Shown: positions 10,591-27,673 of the stretch, in pieces
How the letters are laid out: each line of letters begins with the position of its first letter
Numbering within the stretch: position 1 is the first letter of the stretch
Translations under genes and position numbers: made by a program
Source of the DNA: Beijerinckiaceae bacterium
GTDB taxonomy: Bacteria; Pseudomonadota; Alphaproteobacteria; Rhizobiales; Beijerinckiaceae
NCBI GenBank assembly: GCA_947475995.1
Contig: CANJNI010000006.1
Coordinates: forward strand, 87,325 to 151,324
Direction: 5' to 3'
Length of the DNA: 64,000 nt
Notes under the pieces: generated by a model
Told to the model about the DNA's origin: nothing
What the model saw: the letters and a program-made list of their open reading frames with translations, nothing else
Databases searched by the model: none

Positions 10591-12195
10591 ATGCGGCTAG
10601 TTTCTTCGATAGACAAGCAATCAGCGTCCTTTTCTGAAAACGCCGCGCATATGAAATCGCTGGTGGCGGACCTCAGGGCAAAGGCGGCCGAGATAGCGCT
10701 TGGCGGCGACGAGCGCTCCCGCGAACGCCATTTATCGCGAGGCAAGATGTTGCCGCGCGAGCGGGTGCGGGCCTTGCTGGACCCCGGATCGCCTTTCCTC
10801 GAAATTGGCCAGATGGCGGCGTGGCGCATGTATGGCGGCGAGGCGCCTTCGGCGGGCCTGATCGCAGGCATCGGCCGCATCGCTGGGCGCGAATGCATGG
10901 TCGTCTGCAATGATGCGACTGTGAAGGGCGGAACCTACTACCCGATGACCGTGAAGAAGCATCTGCGGGCGCAGGAAATCGCCCGGGAAAATCATCTTCC
11001 GTGCCTCTATCTGGTGGACTCGGGCGGCGCCTATCTGCCGGCTCAGGATGAGGTGTTTCCGGACCGGGAGCACTTCGGCCGCATCTTTTTCAATCAGGCG
11101 AATATGTCTGCGATCGGCATCGCGCAGATCGCCGTCGTGATGGGGTCCTGCACAGCAGGCGGCGCCTATGTGCCGGCCATGGCGGACGAGAGCGTCATCG
11201 TGCGCAATCAGGGGACCATCTTTCTCGGCGGGCCTCCGCTGATAAAAGCCGCAACCGGGGAAGAGGTAACGGCCGAGGAGCTTGGAGGCGCCGAAGTTCA
11301 CGCCCGCGTGTCGGGCGTCAGCGACCATTATGCAATGGATGATCGCCACGCGTTGAACATCGCGCGCGAAATTGTCGGCTCGCTCAACCTCAAAAGACGC
11401 GAGCAGCCGGATGCCGTTGCGGCGCGGCCCCCGCAATATCCTGTCGACGACATCTATGGAATCATTCCGAAGGACGCCCGTACGCCTTACGATGTCCGGG
11501 AAGTCATTGCGCGCATCGTGGACGACAGCGATCTGCACGAGTTCAAGAAGCTTTATGGAACGACGCTCGTCTGCGGATTCGCGCACATTCAGGGACATGC
11601 AGTCGGCATACTCGCGAACAATGGGGTGCTGTTTTCTGAAAGCGCCCTGAAGGGCGCGCATTTCATTGAACTCTGCTGCCAGCGCAACATCCCGCTCGTG
11701 TTCCTGCAGAACATCACAGGGTTCATGGTGGGAAAGAAGCACGAGGCCGGCGGCATCGCGCGCGACGGCGCAAAGCTCGTGACGGCTGTCGCCTGCGCGA
11801 AGGTGCCGAAGTTCACGATCATCATCGGCGGTTCTTATGGCGCAGGAAACTACGGCATGTGCGGACGGGCCTTCGGGCCGCGCTTCCTGTGGATGTGGCC
11901 CAACGCACGCATCGGGGTGATGGGCAGCGAGACAGCGCCTGCCGTCCTGGCGCAGGTGCGTCGGGATGCGCTGGCCGCGCAGGGCCGCGATTGGTCGCCC
12001 AGCGAAGAAGCCGAATTCATGAAACCCATCCGCGAGCAATATGAAACGCAGGGGCACCCCTATTATGCGACGGCGCGGCTTTGGGATGATGGAATCATCG
12101 ACCCTGCCGATACACGCATGGTGCTGGGCCTGGGCCTCGCGGCAGCCGCAAATGCGCCGACGGAAGAAACACGTTTCGGTGTGTTCAGGATGTAG
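10591..12195 (+). CDS. Acyl-CoA carboxylase carboxyltransferase subunit (methylcrotonyl-CoA carboxylase beta-like)
   Basis: [78 protein letters not shown] typical of MCC beta. Confidence 0.9.
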
Positions 12196-12197
12196 TC

Positions 12198-14183
12198 ATG
12201 TTCGACAAGATCCTCATTGCAAATCGCGGTGAAATCGCCTGCAGGATCATGCGGACGTGCCGCCGCATGGGTGTCCGGACCGTCGCGGTCTATTCCGACG
12301 CAGACGCAAGCGCCTTGCATGTGCGAGCGGCCGATGAGGCTGTGCGGCTGGGGCCGGCGCCTGCGGCGGACAGCTATCTGAAGGGCGAGGCGATCATCGC
12401 GGCTGCGTTGCAGTTCGGCGCACAAGCGATCCATCCGGGCTACGGGTTCCTGTCCGAGCGCGCTGAATTTGCGCTCGCGTGCCATGCGGCCGGCATCGTC
12501 TTCATTGGTCCTCCGGTGGAGGCGATCCGGACGATGGGCCTGAAGGGCGCAGCCAAGATCCTGATGCGGGAAGCGGAGGTTCCGGTTCTGCCGGGCTATG
12601 AGGGAACTGAACAGAGCGACGATTTTCTGATGCAGCAGGCTGTGGCGACCGGCTGGCCCTTGCTGATCAAGGCGGAAGCAGGCGGCGGCGGAAAGGGGAT
12701 GCGCAAGGTCGTCTCGCCCGATGAGTTCCTGCCAGCACTTGCCGGAGCGCGCCGCGAAGCGCTTGCGGCATTCGGCGATCACCGCGTCGTGCTGGAAAAA
12801 TATCTGGCGCAGGCGCGCCATATCGAAGTGCAGGTGTTCGGCGATCAGTCCGGCAATGTGGTGCATCTTTTCGAACGTGATTGTTCGGTCCAGCGGCGGC
12901 ACCAGAAAATCATCGAGGAAGCTCCGGCGTTCGGCCTTCCGGACGAGATGCGAGCCGCGATGGGCGCCGCCGCCGTGGCAGCCGCGAAGGCGGTGAACTA
13001 CACGGGCGCAGGAACAGTCGAGTTCATCGCGGATGTGTCGGCAGGACTGCGTCCCGACCGCTTCTACTTCATGGAAATGAATACGCGCCTGCAGGTCGAA
13101 CATCCGGTGACGGAGGCGATCACCGGCGTCGATCTTGTCGAATGGCAGTTGCGAATTGCGGCGGGCGAGAGGTTGCCTCTGGGGCAGGAGCAGATTTCAT
13201 TCGACGGCCACGCGATCGAAGCGCGCATCTATGCAGAAAATCCGGCACAGGGGTTTCTCCCCTCGACCGGTCAGTTGCTTCATCTGCGGGCTCCGGGGAG
13301 TTCGCGCTTCGTGCGCGTCGATACGGGCGTGCGGCAAGGCGATACGGTGACGCTTCACTATGATCCGATGATCGCCAAGCTCGTGGCGCGGGGCGCTTCG
13401 CGGGAAGACGCGCTTCGCCGTTTGCGTCTTGCGCTTGAAGCCTATGAAATAGCCGGTCCGCACACGAACAGGGATTTCCTGCTGCGGGTCGCGGAGCATC
13501 AGGCCTTCGCGGCCGGAGACGTCGACACAGGTTTTGTGGACAAACACGCGACAGACCTGCTGGCCGCTACTGAAGATGTGGCGGATGTTCTGGTGTTGGC
13601 GACGCTTCATCTGATGCTCATGCGTCGCACCCTTGCAGGCCCGCAATCTGCGTGGGACGAGTCCTGCTGCTGGCACAACAATCTCGATGTGCGCGAGACG
13701 TTCCGTTTTACGCGTGGCGACGTGGGGCATGAGGTTGTCGCGGTTCACGCGCGTGGCCGCCTTTCGCTGATATGTGGCGAGCGCACTTTCGATATAGCAA
13801 GCTATCGTGAGGATGCCGGCCATATCGAGGTCGAATGCGGCGGCCGGCGGCTTCGAAGCGCTGTCGCACAGGGCGATGCGGAATTGACGATCATCACGCG
13901 CCGCCAGACCGTACGGCTGATGCTCGACGCGAATGTTCGAGCCGATGATGCGGAAGAGGGGTCGTCCGCCGGCGTTGTCGACGCGCCCATGCCGGGGCGC
14001 GTCATCGAAGTGTTTGTCCGCGATGGCGACAGCGTCGAGAGAAATGCACCGGTTCTGGTGCTGGAAGCGATGAAGATGGAATATACGATCCGGGCTCCGG
14101 TGGCCGGAGCTGTTCGGTCTCTTTTGCTGCGCGCAGGCGATCAGGTCAGCGAAGGTGCGCGGCTTTTTGCCATCGAACCATAG
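12198..14183 (+). CDS. Acyl-CoA carboxylase biotin carboxylase/BCCP subunit (methylcrotonyl-CoA carboxylase alpha-like)
   Basis: MFDKILIANRGEIACRIMRT; GGGGKGMR; EMNTRLQVEHPVTE; C-terminal biotin site EAMKMEY. Confidence 0.92.
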   Translation: MFDKILIANRGEIACRIMRTCRRMGVRTVAVYSDADASALHVRAADEAVRLGPAPAADSYLKGEAIIAAALQFGAQAIHPGYGFLSERAEFALACHAAGIVFIGPPVEAIRTMGLKGAAKILMREAEVPVLPGYEGTEQSDDFLMQQAVATGWPLLIKAEAGGGGKGMRKVVSPDEFLPALAGARREALAAFGDHRVVLEKYLAQARHIEVQVFGDQSGNVVHLFERDCSVQRRHQKIIEEAPAFGLPDEMRAAMGAAAVAAAKAVNYTGAGTVEFIADVSAGLRPDRFYFMEMNTRLQVEHPVTEAITGVDLVEWQLRIAAGERLPLGQEQISFDGHAIEARIYAENPAQGFLPSTGQLLHLRAPGSSRFVRVDTGVRQGDTVTLHYDPMIAKLVARGASREDALRRLRLALEAYEIAGPHTNRDFLLRVAEHQAFAAGDVDTGFVDKHATDLLAATEDVADVLVLATLHLMLMRRTLAGPQSAWDESCCWHNNLDVRETFRFTRGDVGHEVVAVHARGRLSLICGERTFDIASYREDAGHIEVECGGRRLRSAVAQGDAELTIITRRQTVRLMLDANVRADDAEEGSSAGVVDAPMPGRVIEVFVRDGDSVERNAPVLVLEAMKMEYTIRAPVAGAVRSLLLRAGDQVSEGARLFAIEP

Positions 14184-16766: not shown

Positions 16767-16949
16767 TGCCGTCTCCGGTGCCTGCGGCGGACACTAGCGG
16801 GCATTTCTTGATGTTCTTCCCTGACCGGGGCGCCCGTGGAGTCGGGCGGTCTTGCTTTCCTTGGCGTTTGGTTGACGGGCGGTTACGTCTGCGGCTCAAA
16901 TCCAATGGAGACTCCCTGCAACGGCGGGTCCAGAAAGTCGGGATTCACA

Positions 16950-17771
16950 ATGGTTCAGCACACCGACCCCAAGGTCCATATGGGCACAATCACCGGCGGG
17001 GAGGCGCGGGACATTTACGCCGCGAATCCTGTCGTCCTGTTGCCGCTCGGCAGTCACGAGGATCAGGGCCCGCACGCCATGATGGGCGACTACCTGCTTG
17101 CGGAGACGATGAGCGAGATCATCGCGCTGAAGGCCACGCGGGCCGGGACACGCACGGTCGTGGCGCCTGTCCTGCCATACGGCGGGCAGGACTTCTTCGG
17201 GCCGATGATCGGCGGCATGACGATCACGCCTGCGGTGCTGACGGGCGTCATCACCGACCTCGTCGCGTCACTGCACCGGAACGGACTGACGCGCGTGATT
17301 GTCATCAACGGTCACGGCGGTAATGTGGGGCCGATCTATGAAGTGACGCGCGAGATCTATCGCCGCACGAAGCAGATCGTTCCGAGCCTCTATCTGTGGC
17401 GCATCGCCTATCCGATGCTCGCGAAGGTCATCGGGGCGGAGAAGGCCGCAACGGCGGCCAGCCACGGTTCCGATCCGCTGACCAGCGTCGGCCTGCATCT
17501 GCATCCGGAGTGGATGCGGATGGATCTCGCCCCCGAACCGAAGCCGATGCAAAGGCTCGATGCGCTCGATCTGCCGTTTACCGGCCTTGGCACGGCGAGC
17601 TTTGAGGGTGCGGAAGTGGCGGTGCCGCACGAATATGACGAGGTTTACAATCTGGGCGTCGGCAAGGGCGATCCGCGCATGGGCTCGGCCGAGACAGGCG
17701 AGAAGCTCACCGAAATGGTGACCGACGTGTGCGCGCGCTTTGTGCAGCATTTTGCGGCGCGCGTGAGCTGA
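16950..17771 (+). CDS. Creatininase family protein
   Basis: VLLPLGSHEDQGPHAMMGDYLLAE, VINGHGGNVGPI; ATG at 16950. Confidence 0.9.
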   Translation: MVQHTDPKVHMGTITGGEARDIYAANPVVLLPLGSHEDQGPHAMMGDYLLAETMSEIIALKATRAGTRTVVAPVLPYGGQDFFGPMIGGMTITPAVLTGVITDLVASLHRNGLTRVIVINGHGGNVGPIYEVTREIYRRTKQIVPSLYLWRIAYPMLAKVIGAEKAATAASHGSDPLTSVGLHLHPEWMRMDLAPEPKPMQRLDALDLPFTGLGTASFEGAEVAVPHEYDEVYNLGVGKGDPRMGSAETGEKLTEMVTDVCARFVQHFAARVS

Positions 17772-17827: not shown

Positions 17828-19966
17828 TTATTTCGCCAGCGGATCAGGCCGCAACTGGAAGTGCGCTGCGAGCGGCTTCGTGCCCTTGCCGCCCTCGATC
17901 AGCCAGGGCGTGCGGTCTCCATTGGTGGTCCAGAGGCCGCGGCCTTTCCAGCCGGCGTTCGGATCGTCGATCCGCCCGTCGAAGCCTTTCGCGTAAAAGC
18001 CCATCGGGTAAGGCACGCGCAGCACGACCATCTTGCCGTCCTTAAGGGCCACAAGGCCGTCGTTGAGATTGCCGGTCGACATGGGGACGTTTTCGCCCAG
18101 GCCGAATGTGTTGTGCTGATCGACCCAGGTGTAATAGCTCGATTCTGCGCTGTTATCGCCGATCCCCTCGAAGCCGGGGCCGGGATATTTGTGCAGCGTC
18201 CAGCCTTCCGGGCAATGATCGCCGAGCGCCTTCGGACCATTCAGCGGGCCCTTGCATTTGGACCGGTCAAAGGCCCCCAGATGTCCGCTCGCGAGCGAAA
18301 CCCAGACGACGCCGTTCTTGTCGATGTCGCCGCCGCGCACGCCAAAGCCGGGCGCGGGGACGTTGTAGACTTCCGCCAGCGCAGTCTCGGGCGGATTGGA
18401 ACCCGGATCAAGCCGCACGACCGCACCCGGATTGGAGCGTGACGCGCCCCATATCGAGCCATCCTTCGTGTGCGGCATCACCGCATAGAAGCCCGCCACG
18501 ACGCGCTTGTCCTTTGTCGGATCGACCGGCTGGTTGGGCTCGACATAATCGTCGCGCTTGCCGTTGCCGTTCGTGTCGAGCACAAGCGCCGTCCAGCCCT
18601 GCGCCTTCTGGATATCTCCGGTCTCCTCCAGAAGTTTGGTGTTGATCCAGCCGACAACCTGTCCGCCGCCGCTTGTCCACAAGGTGTTGTTCGCGTCGTA
18701 GCCGAACTGCAAATGGTGCGTGCCGAAGCAGGTCTGAAAGGCCGTGTATTTCTGCGTTTTCGGATCATACATGGTGATCCGGCGGGCGGAGGAATCGAGC
18801 GGGAACAGCTTCGCGGACGGGTGAGCCGAGCCCTTGCGGCAGAAGTCCGGATTCTCGGGCTTGTGTCCGGTGGCGGAAAGCCACAGGCGGCCCTTCTCGT
18901 CGAACATCGAATTGTGATTGTTGCCGTGCGTATCCCAGATCTTTTCCTCGCCCCAATAGGCCGAGGGCATCAGTGGATCTTTCGAGGCTGCGTGACCGGG
19001 GCCGAGCGCTTCGGGCGTGCCGGGCTCGTAGGTCATCATGAAGGAACTCTCGGCATTCTTCACGGGATCGAGAGTCGGAATCCTGTCGGTCGAATATTCG
19101 GGCGAGCCGTAGAGCGGGCCATAGCCGTTGACGGTCGGGTTGCGGCGGTCGCTGGAAATCAGGTCGTGCAGATATTGCTTTTCGTTCATCCAGTCGCGCA
19201 ACGTAACGACGATATTGCGCTCCTCGCCTTGCGGGCGCTGCGGTTTCGTCTTTGGCAATTCTCCCGCGGCGATCCGTCGTGTCCAATCGGCAAAATATTT
19301 CAGGGGCTCCGCATTCAACTGGCCCGCGACGATGTTGACCATGCTTTCGCCGCCCTGGCCCGACTGGATGCGCCGCATCCAGGCGTCCTCGTGCGTCGGC
19401 AAGTTGCTGAAGGCAGGCGGGAATGTGCGGGTCGAAAGTTGCCCGAGCTGGTGACAGCCCACGCAACCATTGTTCTTCATCAGGTTGATCCAGTCGGACT
19501 GCTTGATGTTCTTGGGAATATCCCCGGTTCCGCCGAACTGGTCGGCCCCCGGCATCCTGAGCATCGAATACCAGTAGATCGCGGGATAATAATGCGCCGC
19601 TGCGGCTTCACTGGGTGCGGGCTTCGCCGAGATCTGAACGGTCTTGCCGGGCTCGACCTTCTGCTTGTCGGAGTCGACAAGTCCATAGCCGCGCGCCCAG
19701 ACGTCATAGGCGCCCTTGGGAAGATCCGGCAGGACGAAGCGGCCCTGATCGTCCGTGACGACCATCTTGATGTAGCGCATCGGAAGCCGCGTCTCGGCGA
19801 TCACCCAGACGCCCGCCTCTGGCCCGTTGGGTCCGCGCACGACGCCGCCGATGTCGTCGGAATCAATGGCAGGCGCTTCCTGCGCGCGCAGCGAATGACT
19901 TGCAGACAGCGCCATTGCGGCGCCCGCAATTGCTCTCATGCTTCGACGGAATCCAGCTTTCTTCAT
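17828..19966 (-). CDS. Secreted carboxypeptidase-regulatory-like domain protein with a single CXXCH motif and Vgb-like beta-propeller
   Basis: Signal peptide; GGVVRGPNGPEAGVWVIAETRLPMRYIKMVVTDDQGRFVLPDLPKGAYDVWARGYG; NNGCVGCHQLGQ; repeated propeller-like segments. Confidence 0.75.
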   Translation of the reverse strand: MKKAGFRRSMRAIAGAAMALSASHSLRAQEAPAIDSDDIGGVVRGPNGPEAGVWVIAETRLPMRYIKMVVTDDQGRFVLPDLPKGAYDVWARGYGLVDSDKQKVEPGKTVQISAKPAPSEAAAAHYYPAIYWYSMLRMPGADQFGGTGDIPKNIKQSDWINLMKNNGCVGCHQLGQLSTRTFPPAFSNLPTHEDAWMRRIQSGQGGESMVNIVAGQLNAEPLKYFADWTRRIAAGELPKTKPQRPQGEERNIVVTLRDWMNEKQYLHDLISSDRRNPTVNGYGPLYGSPEYSTDRIPTLDPVKNAESSFMMTYEPGTPEALGPGHAASKDPLMPSAYWGEEKIWDTHGNNHNSMFDEKGRLWLSATGHKPENPDFCRKGSAHPSAKLFPLDSSARRITMYDPKTQKYTAFQTCFGTHHLQFGYDANNTLWTSGGGQVVGWINTKLLEETGDIQKAQGWTALVLDTNGNGKRDDYVEPNQPVDPTKDKRVVAGFYAVMPHTKDGSIWGASRSNPGAVVRLDPGSNPPETALAEVYNVPAPGFGVRGGDIDKNGVVWVSLASGHLGAFDRSKCKGPLNGPKALGDHCPEGWTLHKYPGPGFEGIGDNSAESSYYTWVDQHNTFGLGENVPMSTGNLNDGLVALKDGKMVVLRVPYPMGFYAKGFDGRIDDPNAGWKGRGLWTTNGDRTPWLIEGGKGTKPLAAHFQLRPDPLAK

Positions 19967-20069: not shown

Positions 20070-21386
20070 TCAGGCGTAGATGTTCTTCTTCGCCTTGGAG
20101 GGGAGGACGCGCTGTTCGATGAAGTTGCTGACGAGCGCCCGCATTTTCTGCTCGTCCCATGTGTTTCCGTCTACGGCGTCCACCGGGAAGTCGAGCACCG
20201 GAATGCCGGCCTCCTCAAGAGCCTGATTGACTGTCTTGACGCCCCACCAGCCGGCGATGGACAGGCCGCCGTCGACGCGATGCGTGCGGGCTTCCTCGAT
20301 CGCCCATGCGCTGCCGAGCCCCGGAATGTGCATCTGTTCCGACATGGTGACATAGCGGCTGGCGAGGGCGCGGATCGGGTCGCGGCCGCCGTAACGGATG
20401 TAGCCATCGCTGGCGATGGACAGATAATTGGAGCGCACGAAGACCGCGCCGTACTTCTCTTCGAATTCGGTGAAGAAATCGAGGTTCTGCCAGAGGCCCT
20501 GTCCGACATACATCAGCCGGATCTGCTCGTTGGGGCAGGCCCACATCTGGTTGTCGGCGCGGTGCTTGATCTCGTCGCGGAAAGCGCGCGCCTGCTGGTA
20601 AGCCCATTCGGTGCCGCGATGCCACTGGATGCCCATCACCTGTCCCATCACTTCGCCAAGTCGTGCGGGAAGCTTCGGGGCGGTCTCGATGATGGTGCGG
20701 ATTTCATGGAAGTACTCTTCCTGCGCGTTCACCCGATTGATGATCTCGCGCAGGCGGTCGTAATCGAGTTTCTTGCCCGCGACCTTTTCGGCGGCCGCGA
20801 TGAGATCCTGATATTGGGCGGCGAGCGCGTCGATGCGATAGTCGCCGTCGAGATCTTCCCACTGCCAGCGCGACATTTTCCACCACTCGGGCGTGGGACG
20901 GTCCAGCACCGGCTGTTCGATGGGAATGAAGGGCGCGCCCGAAATCGCCGACATGACCTCGGCGCTGCGCTCATTGATCGAGGTGCAGAGCAGCGAAGGC
21001 ATCGGCAGGCCGCCCCACGGCTTGTCGGGATTTTCCTCGTCGAGCATCACCGCGAGAGTGAGCGCCGCATAGCGACTGAGATTGCGATGGTAGCCGCACT
21101 TGTCGAGAAAGTTCGAATAATAGCCCGACTGACGTTTGGCGGCCACGAGGCCCGAATACCAGACGTCCGTGATGAACGGGATGTCGAGCGCTTCGAGAAT
21201 TTCGTGCGGCACGAGTGCGCCCACAACCGCATAGGGCTGGCCGCCCTGGAACACGTCCTTGCGCAGGCCCTCGAACCATTCGCGCTGATAGGCCCGCAAG
21301 GTATGGCTCACCTTGAGTTGCGTGAGCGATTCATGTTTGCGCTTTGCTTCTTCACGGGCCTTGGCGGCGTCAGTGGGAGCGCTCAT
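20070..21386 (-). CDS. 2-hydroxyacyl-CoA dehydratase / benzoyl-CoA reductase-like subunit
   Basis: HGD-D family layout (PFITDVWYSGL, C-terminal DGGLSIAGWWGVKTVNQALEEAGIPVLDFPVDAVDGNTWDEQKMRALVSNFIE); start ATG at 21386. Confidence 0.75.
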   Translation of the reverse strand: MSAPTDAAKAREEAKRKHESLTQLKVSHTLRAYQREWFEGLRKDVFQGGQPYAVVGALVPHEILEALDIPFITDVWYSGLVAAKRQSGYYSNFLDKCGYHRNLSRYAALTLAVMLDEENPDKPWGGLPMPSLLCTSINERSAEVMSAISGAPFIPIEQPVLDRPTPEWWKMSRWQWEDLDGDYRIDALAAQYQDLIAAAEKVAGKKLDYDRLREIINRVNAQEEYFHEIRTIIETAPKLPARLGEVMGQVMGIQWHRGTEWAYQQARAFRDEIKHRADNQMWACPNEQIRLMYVGQGLWQNLDFFTEFEEKYGAVFVRSNYLSIASDGYIRYGGRDPIRALASRYVTMSEQMHIPGLGSAWAIEEARTHRVDGGLSIAGWWGVKTVNQALEEAGIPVLDFPVDAVDGNTWDEQKMRALVSNFIEQRVLPSKAKKNIYA

Positions 21387-22537
21387 CGGGCGGCCTCCTT
21401 GCGGCCGGGGATGCCGGCAAAAAACGGTTCGAGTTCGGATGCGATGGCAGAGCGGCCCTTGTCGCGCAGGGCGTCGTGGAACAGGAGCTGGACCGGCTTG
21501 CCCATGTCGCGGAAGGTCTTCGCAAGGCGCGGCGTGTCCCAGCCGAGCATACGGTCGCTGGGGGGGATGTACATGACGATGGCGTCGATATCGCTGCGCG
21601 CAGCTTGCTCCATCATCCATGTCTCGCGCGCGGCGGGCGGCCAGACGCCGGTTGTCGGCACGTCGCTCCAGTATTTGTCGAGGATGGCCTGCAGCGGATC
21701 GAGCTTCGTTGAAATGTCGTCGCCTGCGGCGCGTGCGCCCCAGGTGTCATCCTCGGCCACCACATTGGCTCCGGCCGCTTCGATCAATTGATGGACGTTG
21801 GTGTGGCCGAGCGGCTCGGCGGTGATGAGCAGCACATTGTGTCGCGCCGAAAGGGCGGGGCCGGCGGCTGCTTCGGAGATGAAGGATGCGAGCGCCTGCG
21901 CATAAGACTGCGGGTCCATGAAGTAACCTGCGCCGATGGCCTGCATGGCTTCGACGCCGCCGACCGTCCCGGTGGCGCGCAGATTGCCGAGCCGGCGCTG
22001 CAAGGCGCGCGTGCTGTTCGTCGTCTCGATGGCGGCCACCAGCGCGGCGTCGTCGACCTTTGCGGCGATGCGTCCGATGCGTTTCACGAGATCGCGGATA
22101 CGGTCCTCGTTATAGACGCGCACGGCTTCGCGCTGGCTTTGCATCAGATCGTAGATGGCAAAGGGCGGCATTTTCGGCGCGCGGCCGAGACGATAGATTT
22201 CCTTCAGGAAATAATAGAGCTTGTCGTAGGGGCGCGAGAGCACGAGCAGATCGAGAAACTCGAAATCTCCGTCCACACCAGCCTCGAACAAGGTTCGTGT
22301 TTCGGGCGGCAGCTCAGGATCGACATAGATGTCGGCGACCGGCGTCTTGCGGTCGAGATCGGCGGTGATCAAGATCGGCACTGCGCCCGCAGCCATGATG
22401 AGTTCCGTCGGGACCGTGTGGCCAATGCGGCCGATCACCTTGCGCCCTGCGGCGTGAGCGGCACGCGCGGCTTCCTGCCGATGCGCATAATGGTGCGCGA
22501 GCGTCTGGAACGCCGCTCCGCGTTGAGGTTTTTGCAT
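21383..22537 (-). CDS. 2-hydroxyacyl-CoA dehydratase-like second subunit, cysteine-free
   Basis: KVIGRIGHTVPTELIMAAGAVPILITAD, FEFLDLLVLSRPYDKLYYFLKEI, DAIVMYIPPSDRM...FRDMGKPVQLLFHD match the HGD-D family layout; no Cys in 384 aa; 4-bp overlap with 20070-21386. Confidence 0.72.
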   Translation of the reverse strand: MQKPQRGAAFQTLAHHYAHRQEAARAAHAAGRKVIGRIGHTVPTELIMAAGAVPILITADLDRKTPVADIYVDPELPPETRTLFEAGVDGDFEFLDLLVLSRPYDKLYYFLKEIYRLGRAPKMPPFAIYDLMQSQREAVRVYNEDRIRDLVKRIGRIAAKVDDAALVAAIETTNSTRALQRRLGNLRATGTVGGVEAMQAIGAGYFMDPQSYAQALASFISEAAAGPALSARHNVLLITAEPLGHTNVHQLIEAAGANVVAEDDTWGARAAGDDISTKLDPLQAILDKYWSDVPTTGVWPPAARETWMMEQAARSDIDAIVMYIPPSDRMLGWDTPRLAKTFRDMGKPVQLLFHDALRDKGRSAIASELEPFFAGIPGRKEAAR

Positions 22538-23718
22538 TAGACCACTCCAGCCGCTTTCAGGCGTTCTGTTTCATCTGCGCTGTAGCCGAGTTCGGCCAGC
22601 ACTTCATTCGTATGTTCGCCGAGTTCGGGCAGGCGCTTTTCGAGAGCGGGACCATCGGCATCGGCCACGAAGCCCGCGTTCATCAGACGCATGGCCTTGC
22701 CATCGGCGGTGGCGCTGTCCTGCAACATGCGTCGCTCGCGCAGGGATGGCATGGACAGAAGTTCGCCGGATGTGCGGACTTTTGCGGCGGGCGCGCCGGC
22801 CTCCATCAAGGCCCTTTCGAGATCGCTCGCCTTCAGCGGCGCGATGCGGCGCGACAGTTCGGCGCGCAATTCATCCTTGTTGGCGAGACGCGACGCGGGC
22901 TTTTCATAGCGCGGGTCCTTGATCAGTTCGGGAGCGCCGAGCACGCCGCACAGGGCTTCCCAATGGTTCTGGAAATTGCCGCTGAGCCACAGCCATCCAT
23001 CGGTGGTGCGGAAAGGTCCGACCGTGGGGCGATCCTGCACGATCGGTTGCGTCGCCTTGATGCGGTCGCCGCTGATCATTTGGCGCACGAGGCCGGGCCC
23101 CATGAGGACGAGCGTTGCGTCCAGCATGGCGACGTCGAGATGCTGCCCCTCGCCGGTGCGTTCGCGTCGGATGAGCGCCTGGAGGATCGCCGAATAAGCC
23201 ACGAAGCCACTGAAACAATCGATGCTGAAGCCGCGACCCTGCGAGGGAATGTCGTTGTCTTCGCCGCTCCACGCCATCCCGGTCATGGCCTGAATGGTAT
23301 GGTCATAGGCGGGCCATCTGGCCATCTCGCCGCCCTGTCCGAAGCCGGTGATGCTGCAGGTGATGAGGCGCGGATTCAGCGCGCGCAGATCCTCATGGCC
23401 GAGGCCTATTTCGGTGAGCGCGCCGGGGCGCTGGTTCTCCACCATGACGTCGGCCGTCATCGCGAGTGCGCGCACGATGGACTGGCCTTCGGGGCTCTTG
23501 AGATTGACGGTGATGGAGCGCTTGCCGGCATTCACCGCCGCAAAGGCAGATCCGACATTCCAGCCCGGCTCCTTGATGAATTCGCGGAAATCATCGCCGA
23601 TGCCGGGACGCTCGACCTTGACGACGTCCGCGCCCAGAAGGCCCAGATGGTAGGTGCAGAAAGGCCCGGCGAGCGCATGGGTCAGATCGAGAATTCGCAG
23701 GCCTTCGAGCGCCTTCAT
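22537..23718 (-). CDS. CaiB/BaiF (class III) CoA-transferase family protein
   Basis: LEGLRILDLTHALAGPFCTYHLGLLGADVVKVERPGIGDDFR; NAGKRSITVNLKSPEG; 1-bp overlap with the dehydratase subunit. Confidence 0.93.
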   Translation of the reverse strand: MKALEGLRILDLTHALAGPFCTYHLGLLGADVVKVERPGIGDDFREFIKEPGWNVGSAFAAVNAGKRSITVNLKSPEGQSIVRALAMTADVMVENQRPGALTEIGLGHEDLRALNPRLITCSITGFGQGGEMARWPAYDHTIQAMTGMAWSGEDNDIPSQGRGFSIDCFSGFVAYSAILQALIRRERTGEGQHLDVAMLDATLVLMGPGLVRQMISGDRIKATQPIVQDRPTVGPFRTTDGWLWLSGNFQNHWEALCGVLGAPELIKDPRYEKPASRLANKDELRAELSRRIAPLKASDLERALMEAGAPAAKVRTSGELLSMPSLRERRMLQDSATADGKAMRLMNAGFVADADGPALEKRLPELGEHTNEVLAELGYSADETERLKAAGVV

Positions 23719-23776: not shown

Positions 23777-24796
23777 TCAGTTGGCGCCGAGCAATTGCAC
23801 GAGGCCGGGGATTTTTTCCTTGATGGTCCGGAAGTCGGGCGTCGCCATCTGGGGGAGCGGCAGCGTGCCGGGCACACCGTTGATCGGCGAGAAACCGTCC
23901 TTGTTAAGCACGGCCTGCCCGTCGACGCTCAGCGTAAAGGCGGCGAGCAACCTGGCGATATTCGGATGCGGGGCCTTCTGCATGATCATCATGCTGGTGT
24001 CGGAAGAGATCGTCGGCTGCGGGAAAATCTCGCCGATCGGCGCGCCCTTATCGAGCAGACCCACGACGACCTGATGGATGCCGGGCGCGTAGATTGCCTT
24101 TGCGCCGGCCGCAATCTGCTGAATGCCCGGAACCGCGCTCGGCGAGAGCGTCGCGTTCTGGCCGAGCGCCTTGATGAAGCCCTCCCCATAGGTGTCGCGC
24201 ATCAGCACATGCCAGAGGGCAGGCGAGCCGCCGACGCGCGGGTCGATGGTCAGCACGCGGCCCTTCCACTTCGGGTCGATCAGGTCCTGCCACGTCTTCG
24301 GCGGGTCCTTGATCTGGTCCTTGTTGTAGATCAGCGAATAGGGAATGTGCGAAACGATCACCGAGAACGGCGTCTTCACATGCGCATAGGGAGCCAGACC
24401 CGGCACGATATCGATGGAGGCGAACATGCCCTTGGCGTGCATCTGCTCCTGCAGCAACTTATCGGTGTCCAGGACGACATCCGCGACCGGGCTGCCGCTT
24501 TCGTGCTCGGAAAGAAGACGTTGGCCGAGCGCGCCGGAGATGAGGCGCGTCACCTCCAGTTCGATGCCGTACTTTTCCTTGAACTTGGCCACGAAGGCCT
24601 GAATGATCGCCGGATCGGTGACGGCATAGAGCGAGCCCTTGCCTTCCTTCTTGGCGGCCTCGATCAACGCCGCGTCGACCTGCTGGGCGGAGGCGATGGA
24701 GGGCAGCATGGCGGCGGCCATTGCCGCACCCGCAACCTGCTTGATGAATTTCCGGCGCGTCGTCCGGCCTTTTAGCATTCTGGTCATCTGTTTCAT
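23777..24796 (-). CDS. ABC transporter extracellular solute-binding protein (ferric/organic-ligand type, family 1), Tat-like signal
   Basis: TTRRKFIKQVAGAAMAAA; SLYAVTDPAIIQAFVAKFKEKYGIELEV; DLIDPKWKGRV. Confidence 0.88.
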   Translation of the reverse strand: MKQMTRMLKGRTTRRKFIKQVAGAAMAAAMLPSIASAQQVDAALIEAAKKEGKGSLYAVTDPAIIQAFVAKFKEKYGIELEVTRLISGALGQRLLSEHESGSPVADVVLDTDKLLQEQMHAKGMFASIDIVPGLAPYAHVKTPFSVIVSHIPYSLIYNKDQIKDPPKTWQDLIDPKWKGRVLTIDPRVGGSPALWHVLMRDTYGEGFIKALGQNATLSPSAVPGIQQIAAGAKAIYAPGIHQVVVGLLDKGAPIGEIFPQPTISSDTSMMIMQKAPHPNIARLLAAFTLSVDGQAVLNKDGFSPINGVPGTLPLPQMATPDFRTIKEKIPGLVQLLGAN

Positions 24797-24821: not shown

Positions 24822-26519
24822 TCAGCTCATTCTTGCAGAGTATCGCGAAAAGAAAAGCATGATGGCGACGCCGACGGACGTTACCGCCGTCACCACGATC
24901 GACATGGCGGCAAGCTGCGGAAACGATCCGAAAACCCACAGTTCCGTCATGACGCGGCCGATGACCGGATTGCGGGCTCCGCCCAGCAGGCTCGACGCAG
25001 TGACTTCGCCTGCCGTGTGAATGAAAACGATGATCCAGCCCGCCACCAGCCCCGGAACCGAAAGCGGCAGAAGCACGCGCCAGAATGTGCGGCCGGGTCC
25101 TGCGCCGGCGATCCGGGAGGCTTCGGACAGGTCGATCCCGATGCCGGACGCAGCCGCCGCCGCCGCACGCGCCGCGAAGGGCAGGGCCATCGCCAGATAA
25201 GCGAGGAAGAGGATCGTCAATGTGCCGTAGAACTGGAAAGGTTTGGGGGTGAAGGTGATCAGGAACGCGATGCCGATCACCGTATGCGGCAAGGTTGCCG
25301 GAAGGCTCATCACGATATCGGCCCAGCGGCTGCTCGCGCCTTTCTGCTGGCGGGCCTGCAAGGTCACCAGCGCGGCGATCAGCACCGCCACCGTCGCGAC
25401 GGCCGCTCCCAGTGAAAAGCTGGTGACGAAGGCGCGGCTTGTGGGTCCGTTTTCGAACAGCACGAAGCGATAATTGGCGAGACTGAGCTGGTTCCAGCGC
25501 ACGATCGGCGTCCAGAAGGATTGCAGCGAGACCAGAATGAGCCCCAGCACCGGCAGGACGGACGTCGAGACCAGATAGGCGATTGCGAGAATTTTCGCCG
25601 GGATGCGCAAACGTCCCAGTCTTATGCGACCGGCGCGCGCGCCGCGTCCGCCTGTCACCGCATTGCGGTCTCCCGGCGCCAGATAGCGCTGCGCCAGAAG
25701 CAGCGATTGCACGACCGCCACCATGGCGGCGCTCAGCAGAAGTCCGGCTGCGGTCTGCGGCGGGAATTGCTCGAAGAGCCGATAGATATAGACCGAAATC
25801 ACATCCATGCGGGCCGCCGTGCCGAGCACGATCGGCACCGAGAACAGCCCGATGCCGGCGATGATCGCCAGCAGCGACGCCGACGCAATGGCCGGGCGTA
25901 TGGCGGGCAGCGTTACTCGCAACATGGTGCGAACAGGAGGAGCGCCGCTGACGCGCGAGGCTTCCTCCAGAGCGGAATCGAGTCCGCGCAGGGCCGCCGA
26001 AACGACGAGATAGACGTAGGGCGTCAGATAGAGGCCCGTGATGGCCATGAGGCCGGCGGGCGTATAGATGTTCAGCGGGCCGGTGAAGGACTCGACGCCC
26101 ACCAGCCCCAGCAGCCAGCGCAGAAAGCTGTTGCCGAATCCGACATTCGGATCGAGCAGGATCGCCCAGCCGATGACTCCCGCGATGGGCGGCACGATCA
26201 TCGGCGCGAGCGGCAGCAGTTCGCCGGCAGCTCCCAGATCGCCGTCCGTGCGCTCATTGATGAAGGCCAGCAGGGAGCCGATGATGGTCGCGATAAAGGC
26301 TCCGCCCATCACGATGATGGCGGTGTTGAACATCACGCGGCCTAGCGCCCCGGAGGCAAAGGCCGCAGTGAGTTCCTTCAGGCCTGCGGGCGCTTCGCCG
26401 ATCGTGCGCCAGATGGTCACCCCGAACGGAAAGATCAGAAAAACCGCGACGAGCGCCACAACGCCCATCACGAGGGGCGCGAAAAGCGGCTTGCGCCGGA
26501 CTGGGCGGGAGGCGCTCAT
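24822..26519 (-). CDS. ABC transporter permease (fused double-domain, FbpB-like)
   Basis: Multiple TM helices; two EAA-type loops (EEASRVSGAPPVRTMLRVTLPAI, SEASRIAGAGPGRTFWRVLLPL); in-frame ATG at 26519. Confidence 0.9.
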   Translation of the reverse strand: MSASRPVRRKPLFAPLVMGVVALVAVFLIFPFGVTIWRTIGEAPAGLKELTAAFASGALGRVMFNTAIIVMGGAFIATIIGSLLAFINERTDGDLGAAGELLPLAPMIVPPIAGVIGWAILLDPNVGFGNSFLRWLLGLVGVESFTGPLNIYTPAGLMAITGLYLTPYVYLVVSAALRGLDSALEEASRVSGAPPVRTMLRVTLPAIRPAIASASLLAIIAGIGLFSVPIVLGTAARMDVISVYIYRLFEQFPPQTAAGLLLSAAMVAVVQSLLLAQRYLAPGDRNAVTGGRGARAGRIRLGRLRIPAKILAIAYLVSTSVLPVLGLILVSLQSFWTPIVRWNQLSLANYRFVLFENGPTSRAFVTSFSLGAAVATVAVLIAALVTLQARQQKGASSRWADIVMSLPATLPHTVIGIAFLITFTPKPFQFYGTLTILFLAYLAMALPFAARAAAAAASGIGIDLSEASRIAGAGPGRTFWRVLLPLSVPGLVAGWIIVFIHTAGEVTASSLLGGARNPVIGRVMTELWVFGSFPQLAAMSIVVTAVTSVGVAIMLFFSRYSARMS

Positions 26520-27673
26520 TATCCTTGCGCCAGCGGAAAGATCATGGTGCGCGCCTTGGGGAAGGACACCGTCAGATTCTCCCCGTGCGGATGACGTTCG
26601 CCGCCGATCGCAATGGCGACTATGAGCTTGTCGGCAACGCGCAGCACATGTTCGAAGGTGGAGCCCTGAAACAGGGATCTTTCGAGAACTGCGCTCACCG
26701 TATTGTGCGTCGCGGGCGCGGCCCCGTCGACAGCAAGGCCGCATTGCTCTGGCCGGAACATGACGGCGACCTTCTGGCCGATGGTCGCAACACCGGCACC
26801 GGCCGAGCCCGCAATGACTCCGGCGGGCGTCGAGACGACACATGTCCTGCCGTCAAGCGCGGTGACTTCGCCCTGCATTTCGTTGGCGCTGCCGATGAAG
26901 TCCGCCACGTAGCGGGAGGCGGGCGCATCATAGATCTCTTCGGGCGTGCCGATCTGGGCGATCTTTCCCACTTCCATCACGGCGATCCGGTCTGCCAGGG
27001 CGAGAGCCTCGCTCTGGTCATGCGTGACGTAAAGACTCGAAAAGCCGATTTCCTGCTGGAGCGCGACGAGTTCGATCCGCAGGCGCGCGCGCACCTTCGC
27101 GTCGAGATTGGAGAGTGGTTCATCGAACAGCACGAGGCCGCCGGTGGAGACGAGGGCGCGGGCGAGCGCCACGCGCTGCTGCTGGCCGCCGGACAATTGT
27201 CCCGGGAAGGATTGGGACAGATGGGCAAGCCCGACGCGGTCCAGCGCCTGCGTGACGCGCGGGCGCAGCTCAGCATCCTTCACGCGTTGATTTCGCAAGG
27301 GATAGGCGACGTTCTCAAAAACGCTCATATGCGGCCAGAGCGCGTAGGACTGGAACACCATGCCCAGATTGCGCTCTTCCGGCGGAAACCAGATGTCCCG
27401 GCCGGCGGAGGACACGATCTGCCCTTCTATCTGGATATCGCCGCCATCGGGCTGTTCCAGTCCGGCGATGGAGCGCAACAGCGTTGTCTTGCCACAACCT
27501 GAAGGCCCGAGCAGCACGACGAACTCGCCGGGGTGAATATCGATGGACACGCTGTCGAGCGCCGTGTGTTCACCGGCGCGCGTGCGATAACGCTTGGTCA
27601 GATTCTGCACGGAGACGCGCGGCGTCGTCGACGCTGCGCTCTGGCCCGGTTTGGCCGCGTTCTGCTCGCTCAT
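26519..27673 (-). CDS. ABC transporter ATP-binding protein (FbpC/PotA-like)
   Basis: GPSGCGKTTLLR, LSGGQQQRVALARAL, LFDEPLSNLDAKVR; TOBE-like C-terminus; alternative start 27712. Confidence 0.93.
   Translation of the reverse strand: MSEQNAAKPGQSAASTTPRVSVQNLTKRYRTRAGEHTALDSVSIDIHPGEFVVLLGPSGCGKTTLLRSIAGLEQPDGGDIQIEGQIVSSAGRDIWFPPEERNLGMVFQSYALWPHMSVFENVAYPLRNQRVKDAELRPRVTQALDRVGLAHLSQSFPGQLSGGQQQRVALARALVSTGGLVLFDEPLSNLDAKVRARLRIELVALQQEIGFSSLYVTHDQSEALALADRIAVMEVGKIAQIGTPEEIYDAPASRYVADFIGSANEMQGEVTALDGRTCVVSTPAGVIAGSAGAGVATIGQKVAVMFRPEQCGLAVDGAAPATHNTVSAVLERSLFQGSTFEHVLRVADKLIVAIAIGGERHPHGENLTVSFPKARTMIFPLAQG

Follow-up and report, generated by a model that had tools for sequence, protein, structure and literature searches.

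The 2-hydroxyacyl-CoA dehydratases and the class I benzoyl-CoA reductases (the HAD/BCR family) perform textbook chemistry that depends on an ATP-driven activator and on a low-potential [4Fe-4S] cluster that has an open iron site. In HadBC with HadA, as also in FldBC with FldA and in HgdAB, two homologous PF06050 subunits stand beside a class III CoA-transferase. In the FldA and HadA systems the CoA-transferase draws its CoA from the product thioester, and the CoA is thereby used catalytically. The HAD/BCR reaction is reported to require the open iron site on the reduced cluster together with the activator (PMC11574389), and in the reductase subunit BzdO the published cluster ligands are C95, C128 and C380, with E65 described as the acid/base catalyst (PMC11971306). 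Here we analysed a stretch of 64,000 nucleotides (called the window) from a Beijerinckiaceae bacterium (contig CANJNI010000006.1, positions 87,325 to 151,324), which carries a pair of PF06050 genes, subunits A and B, next to a CaiB-type CoA-transferase gene. A preliminary description, made from the sequence alone, regarded them as a candidate undescribed system, either a divergent and probably oxygen-tolerant branch with different CoA-ester chemistry or a binding or scaffold complex. We found that all six cluster-ligand cysteines are gone from the pair, and that it belongs to a large, many-phylum, ligand-poor branch of PF06050 which is apparently undescribed. The HAD/BCR protein fold has probably been reused in this branch for different chemistry.

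The three genes lie on the minus strand in the order CaiB, B and A, as previously described: the class III (CaiB/BaiF) CoA-transferase (393 aa) at 22537..23718, the beta-like subunit B (384 aa) at 21383..22537 and the alpha-like subunit A (438 aa) at 20070..21386. CaiB and B share 1 nt, and B and A share 4 nt. The start of A was placed at 21386, as a longer open reading frame (ORF) of 516 aa runs back into B. Both subunits match PF06050 over their full length, with scores of 107.5 bits (A) and 121.8 bits (B) against a cut-off of 28.4, which bears out the family assignment made earlier; both score far under all the curated equivalogs of this family. No other PF06050 gene is present in their genome (4.14 Mb; the assembly is 95.9% complete), and they represent two different homologous subunits paired by gene order. 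Natural fusions of B and A into a single chain occur in six loci of relatives (L094, L095, L120, L123, L124 and L130).

Each subunit was folded as a single chain by AlphaFold2 with 62-64 sequences, and both were predicted confidently without clusters in the model. The predicted local distance difference test (pLDDT) and predicted template modelling (pTM) scores are 92.4 and 0.91 for A, and 95.1 and 0.93 for B. When the models were compared with the PDB by Foldseek, the HAD/BCR family alone matched both of them at E<=0.001. The best folds for A are the active-site (alpha) subunits MbdO, BzdO and HadB, and those for B are BzdN, HadC and the double-cubane cluster protein (DCCP); we therefore call A alpha-like and B beta-like. 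By sequence and fold together the closest described systems are the class I benzoyl-CoA reductases BzdNO and MbdON, with A resembling MbdO and BzdO, and B resembling BzdN among others. The likeness to HadBC is also close, as A resembles HadB (TMt 0.85-0.86) and B resembles HadC (TMt 0.83-0.85). The best NCBIfam model for B is of the DCCP/YjiM type (77.5 bits, under the cut-off of 350 bits) and the fold is common to both; however, B has no cysteine for an [8Fe-9S] cluster, and the window encodes a two-gene alpha/beta pair.

To locate the ligand positions, the pair and its relatives were aligned by MAFFT with segments of HadB, BzdO, HadC and BzdN and with other canonical members, and an independent profile-profile alignment was made with hhalign. 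The ligand columns of A are those of HadB C84, C117 and C346. The first two coincide with C95 and C128 of BzdO, while C380 falls outside the aligned BzdO segment. Wherever they are filled, the canonical ligand columns are invariant in the MAFFT alignment (36, 36 and 35 rows for A; 34, 34 and 35 rows for B). Both alignments agree on the window pair. In A, C84 is replaced by S104, C117 falls into a deletion after N138 and C346 into a deletion in the AGWWGVKTV loop. In B, the columns of HadC C72, C99 and C325 hold P77, Y104 and D328, within the segments ELPPETRTLF, SRPYDKLYYF and MYIPPSDRM. The column of HadB E55 and BzdO E65 holds V75 in A, and that of HadB S37 holds A57. The preliminary description was thus right about the three segments of B, about the total absence of cysteine from its 384 aa and about the missing cysteine at AGWWGVKTV. 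It was also right that A has two early cysteines, C97 and C134, but neither aligns with a ligand column, and the suggestion that they are retained ligands fails. All three cysteines of A are off the ligand sites. Subunit A has therefore lost its three ligands, as B has.

The activator was also searched for. In the whole genome of the window organism, PF01869 gave two matches below threshold and none above the cut-off, in keeping with the earlier remark that no activator is visible. The search was extended to 50 genomes of relatives, and 18 of them, including the five searched genomes closest to the window, have no PF01869 match above the cut-off. Matches were found in many of the 50; in most proteobacterial ones they are weaker or partial, and these are probably sugar kinases. 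Ten genomes have strong activator matches (G325-G330 and G333-G336), and among the matches listed for them none is near the pair of the clade described below: they accompany different PF06050 pairs, or lie on a separate contig or over 1 Mb away from the clade pair. Compared with HadBC and HadA, therefore, the window pair has no ligand cysteines, has E55 and S37 of HadB replaced, has no activator gene, and has an ABC importer in its operon. Compared with BzdNO and MbdON, it is without C95, C128, C380 and E65 of BzdO, the double-cubane cysteines of BzdN and an ATPase of the BzdPQ type. Of the features that mark a functional 2-hydroxyacyl-CoA dehydratase or class I benzoyl-CoA reductase, it lacks the three alpha cysteine ligands, the three or more beta cysteine ligands, the active-site Glu and the PF01869-type activator. 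Dehydration of a 2-hydroxyacyl-CoA by ketyl chemistry would be very unlikely in this pair, because the needed residues and the activator gene are missing.

The preliminary picture, drawn from one pair, has to be widened. A scan of GTDB genomes with the alignment of A gave 324 pattern matches, 274 of which are relatives; the best 80 were kept, corresponding to 79 distinct loci. The resulting clade is set apart from the canonical members with support of 100/99 in one tree and 100 in another, and B adjoins A in nearly all its loci. Its members come from Alpha-, Beta-, Gamma- and Deltaproteobacteria, Acidobacteria, Chloroflexota, Bacteroidota, Bacillota and Actinomycetes; many are metagenome-assembled genomes (MAGs), and some labels may be off. 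The relatives most like the window pair, with 69-89% in A, come from MAGs that carry the labels Beijerinckiaceae, Rhizobiales, Ramlibacter, Phenylobacterium and Chloroflexota. Only 3 out of 298 sampled genomes of the same order, the window genome included, have an A of the clade type. These scattered labels among close relatives, together with the rarity within the order, suggest horizontal spread. We found no description of PF06050 pairs lacking cysteine in the open-access PMC literature searched; a paper on SAR202 mentions an expansion of CaiB and no dehydratase. On two Novosphingobium plasmids the public annotation is "2-hydroxyacyl-CoA dehydratase family protein" for A and "hypothetical protein" for B. 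Such dehydratase annotations on genes of the clade are probably wrong. In three loci (L073 of Alteromonas lipolytica, L112 of a Dehalococcoidales MAG and L061 of a Sphingomonadales MAG) 3-4 PF06050 pairs are clustered, several of them divergent paralogues, which suggests that the family has expanded inside individual pathways.

The ligand loss is graded across the clade. For B, 93 of the 94 rows have no cysteine at any of the three ligand columns, the exception being an outlier pair in L112 with cysteine at two of them. A wholly cysteine-free B is found only in the window and in 7 others of the 94. The conserved feature of B is the loss of the ligand positions, and the total absence of cysteine is a quirk of a few members. 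For A, the canonical pattern is cysteine at C84, C117 and C346, with other residues at +3 (after C84) and +2 (after C117). In the clade the pattern is all-or-none: at least 4 cysteines are present in 34 rows and none in 59 rows, and one extra row has the +3 cysteine alone. The cysteine-bearing set consists of C84, a new cysteine at +3 and C117, plus a cysteine at +2 or at C346. The column of HadB E55 and BzdO E65 follows the same division, with Glu in 36/36 canonical rows, Gln in 34/34 cysteine-bearing clade rows, and Gln, Val, Asn, Thr or Pro in the cysteine-free ones. As a control we took 20 extra A-type proteins from genomes bearing an activator. Sixteen have the three ligand cysteines, no +3 cysteine and Glu at the E55 column; one of the other four is a clade member and three belong to a second PF06050 variant. 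This second variant, distinct from the clade, is represented by L149 (G334:C49), L145 (G328:C7) and L154 (G330:C132). Its A keeps part of the ligand set, the ligand columns of its B read D-D-R in L149 and L145, and PF01869 matches lie nearby on the same contig.

On the tree, the cysteine-free A requires at least 3 changes, with 3-4 origins by parsimony. A single origin was obtained in 0% of the bootstrap trees, and a single grouping of all cysteine-free A rows was rejected (p-AU 8.7e-6). The simplest reading of the order of events is that the beta cluster was lost first, the alpha cluster was then closed by a fourth cysteine together with the change from Glu to Gln, and the alpha ligands were finally lost outright. 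The cluster with four cysteine ligands in the cysteine-bearing members is predicted from the residue pattern. Because this pattern is all-or-none and the cysteine-free A arose more than once, the cluster appears to be dispensable. We give about an even chance to the broader proposal that the clade is a distinct class of HAD/BCR-fold enzymes acting on CoA thioesters without iron-sulfur, which passed through an intermediate with a closed four-cysteine alpha cluster and none in beta, and then discarded the cluster several times independently. The clade offers a natural series in which to follow the loss of the metal from a metalloenzyme fold and the later use of that fold. Oxygen as the sole driver of the loss was set aside, because Novosphingobium and Saprospiraceae, which we take to be aerobic groups, have cysteine-bearing members as well.

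The neighbourhood of the pair was studied by our own gene calling on raw contigs, which is imperfect, followed by gene clustering and Pfam assignment of representatives. A CaiB-type gene is present within the fetched flanks of 71 out of 83 loci (25/32 with cysteine-bearing and 46/51 with cysteine-free members), and transporters recur alongside (TRAP, ABC, MFS and TonB); the combination of importer and class III CoA-transferase noted in the window is conserved. For comparison, the window genome has 12 CaiB genes in total, and if they were scattered about 6% chance would be expected per 20 kb. The window CaiB itself clears the PF02515 cut-off with 337.6 bits and is a clear member of the class III CoA-transferases, which include the formyl-CoA, succinate-glutarate and mesaconate enzymes. 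We take its DVAMLD segment to hold the catalytic Asp. Its substrate could not be assigned, as all the curated equivalog scores are far under cut-off. In the same minus-strand run, ahead of CaiB, come the genes of one ABC importer: the ATPase (PotA/PhnT2-like, 26519..27673, start placed at MSEQNAAKP), a fused permease (24822..26519, start placed at MSASRPVRR because a longer ORF would overlap the ATPase gene), and a periplasmic solute-binding protein (SBP_bac_6/SBP_bac_1, 23777..24796), whose gene cluster recurs in 10 loci. The ligand of the last is not assignable, its nearest solved relatives binding iron, pyridoxal phosphate, thiamine and phosphonate. Other recurring partners in the clade are regulators (MarR, IclR and GntR), Peptidase_S15-type hydrolases, esterases, P450, MmgE/PrpD, enolase-superfamily proteins and zinc-dehydrogenases (quinone-oxidoreductase-like). 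Taken together, the neighbourhood resembles a pathway in which imported organic acids, often released from esters, are degraded via CoA thioesters.

Our preferred reading, which we hold to be probable, is that A and B are an alpha/beta heterodimer which still handles acyl-CoA in acid catabolism and has given up radical chemistry. It builds on the fold, the pairing by gene order and fusions, the loss of the ligands and Glu, the missing activator and the linkage to CaiB and the importer. From these we infer the formation of the heterodimer in this organism, its binding of CoA esters, the type of reaction and the direction of flow. The two subunits would form a heterodimer of the HAD/BCR fold without [4Fe-4S] and without ATP-activated radical chemistry. 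The importer would bring in an organic acid, and the co-encoded CoA-transferase would make its CoA thioester, probably with CoA from the product thioester as in FldA and HadA. Subunit A would then bind the acyl-CoA in the pantetheine channel of the family and B would close the site, so that a non-reductive step could be carried out by acid/base residues in the pocket left empty by the cluster. Such a step is favoured because the fold with its CoA channel, the partner CoA-transferase and newly conserved residues in A all remain. It would most likely be an elimination or hydration of the lyase type, and less likely hydrolysis or isomerisation; the class (acyl-CoA lyase or hydratase type) would be a guess from sequence. 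The divergence in chemistry proposed earlier is thus very likely, and the clade would mark an uncharacterised route of acid degradation with a CoA-transferase and a dedicated importer. Some points weigh against this reading. Subunit B evolves about 3 times faster than A, and some members have a shortened B of about 295 aa, so it may be structural only; also, the sequence leaves room for a metal held through Asp/His or for a cofactor supplied otherwise.

The strongest rival is that the pair is non-catalytic and serves the CoA-transferase as a partner for binding or channelling CoA esters, in a scaffold or product-trapping complex. The loss of all known catalytic residues, the quick drift of B and the tight linkage to CaiB all agree with it, yet we regard it as unlikely in view of the constraint on A. 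From comparison with three relatives, dN/dS (the ratio of nonsynonymous to synonymous substitution rates) comes to about 0.07-0.10 in A and about 0.20-0.28 in B, which are rough values as dS is near or above 1. Both subunits are under purifying selection, with B less constrained. Moreover, about 20 positions of A are invariant from phylum to phylum, many of them missing from canonical members, and the cysteine-bearing members occur in the same kind of neighbourhood. The residues conserved in A of the clade include W76, W255, R257, W261, G297-x-W299, E309, R344 and W361, with R257 common to canonical members too. The purifying selection and the recurrence in dozens of genomes place the pattern beyond chance.

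A somewhat less likely rival is a metal-dependent enzyme, in which Asp at the third B ligand site, with Asp, Glu, Ser or His in A, would hold a mononuclear or other oxygen-stable metal as a Lewis acid acting on the acyl-CoA. The column of D328, exactly where C325 of HadC ligates the cluster, is Asp or Glu in 93/94 rows (Asp 88, Glu 5 and Cys 1), and many cysteine-free A rows (33) have Asp at the C346 column. However, the A of the window has C117 and C346 deleted and Ser at C84, and so there is no consistent ligand set for the metal. We rejected the reading as a decayed remnant of a canonical dehydratase in aerobic lineages, which is very improbable: the ligands have indeed been lost repeatedly, but the genes are intact and overlapping, dN/dS indicates purifying selection, the folds are confident, many phyla have kept CaiB and the importer, and the Glu to Gln change and the fourth cysteine are already present in the cysteine-bearing relatives. 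Least probable of all is a canonical dehydratase with ligands elsewhere in the sequence and a borrowed activator, for which the real PF06050 membership speaks and nothing direct, given a B with no cysteine, an A whose three cysteines all miss the ligand sites and a genome with no PF01869 match above cut-off.

Some further genes were noted around the pair. Immediately downstream of A, by 104 bp, begins a protein of 712 aa (17828..19966, minus strand), a possible operon member that has a single haem-c-like motif (CVGCH) and gives a weak match of the carboxypeptidase-regulatory-like kind; a homologue with 88% identity directly follows A in L056 only. An acyl-CoA carboxylase-like pair (carboxyl transferase, and biotin carboxylase with a biotin domain) is located at 10591-14183, about 6 kb away from the operon and on the opposite (plus) strand, and a creatininase-family amidohydrolase (16836-17771, plus strand) lies in between. 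Among the relatives, PGA_cap (CapA-like) proteins stand beside the pair in 27 loci (e.g. L035:6112-7245). They are commoner with cysteine-bearing (20/32) than with cysteine-free members (7/51), and CapA-like proteins would not be expected to act in catabolism. The richest cluster of a relative is L032, on plasmid pHM3 of Rhizobium sp. SSA_523, where one run contains the same type of ABC importer, an enolase-superfamily gene, two MmgE/PrpD-like genes, two CaiB genes, B and A, together with a quinone-oxidoreductase-like gene, a second importer and an IclR-like regulator.

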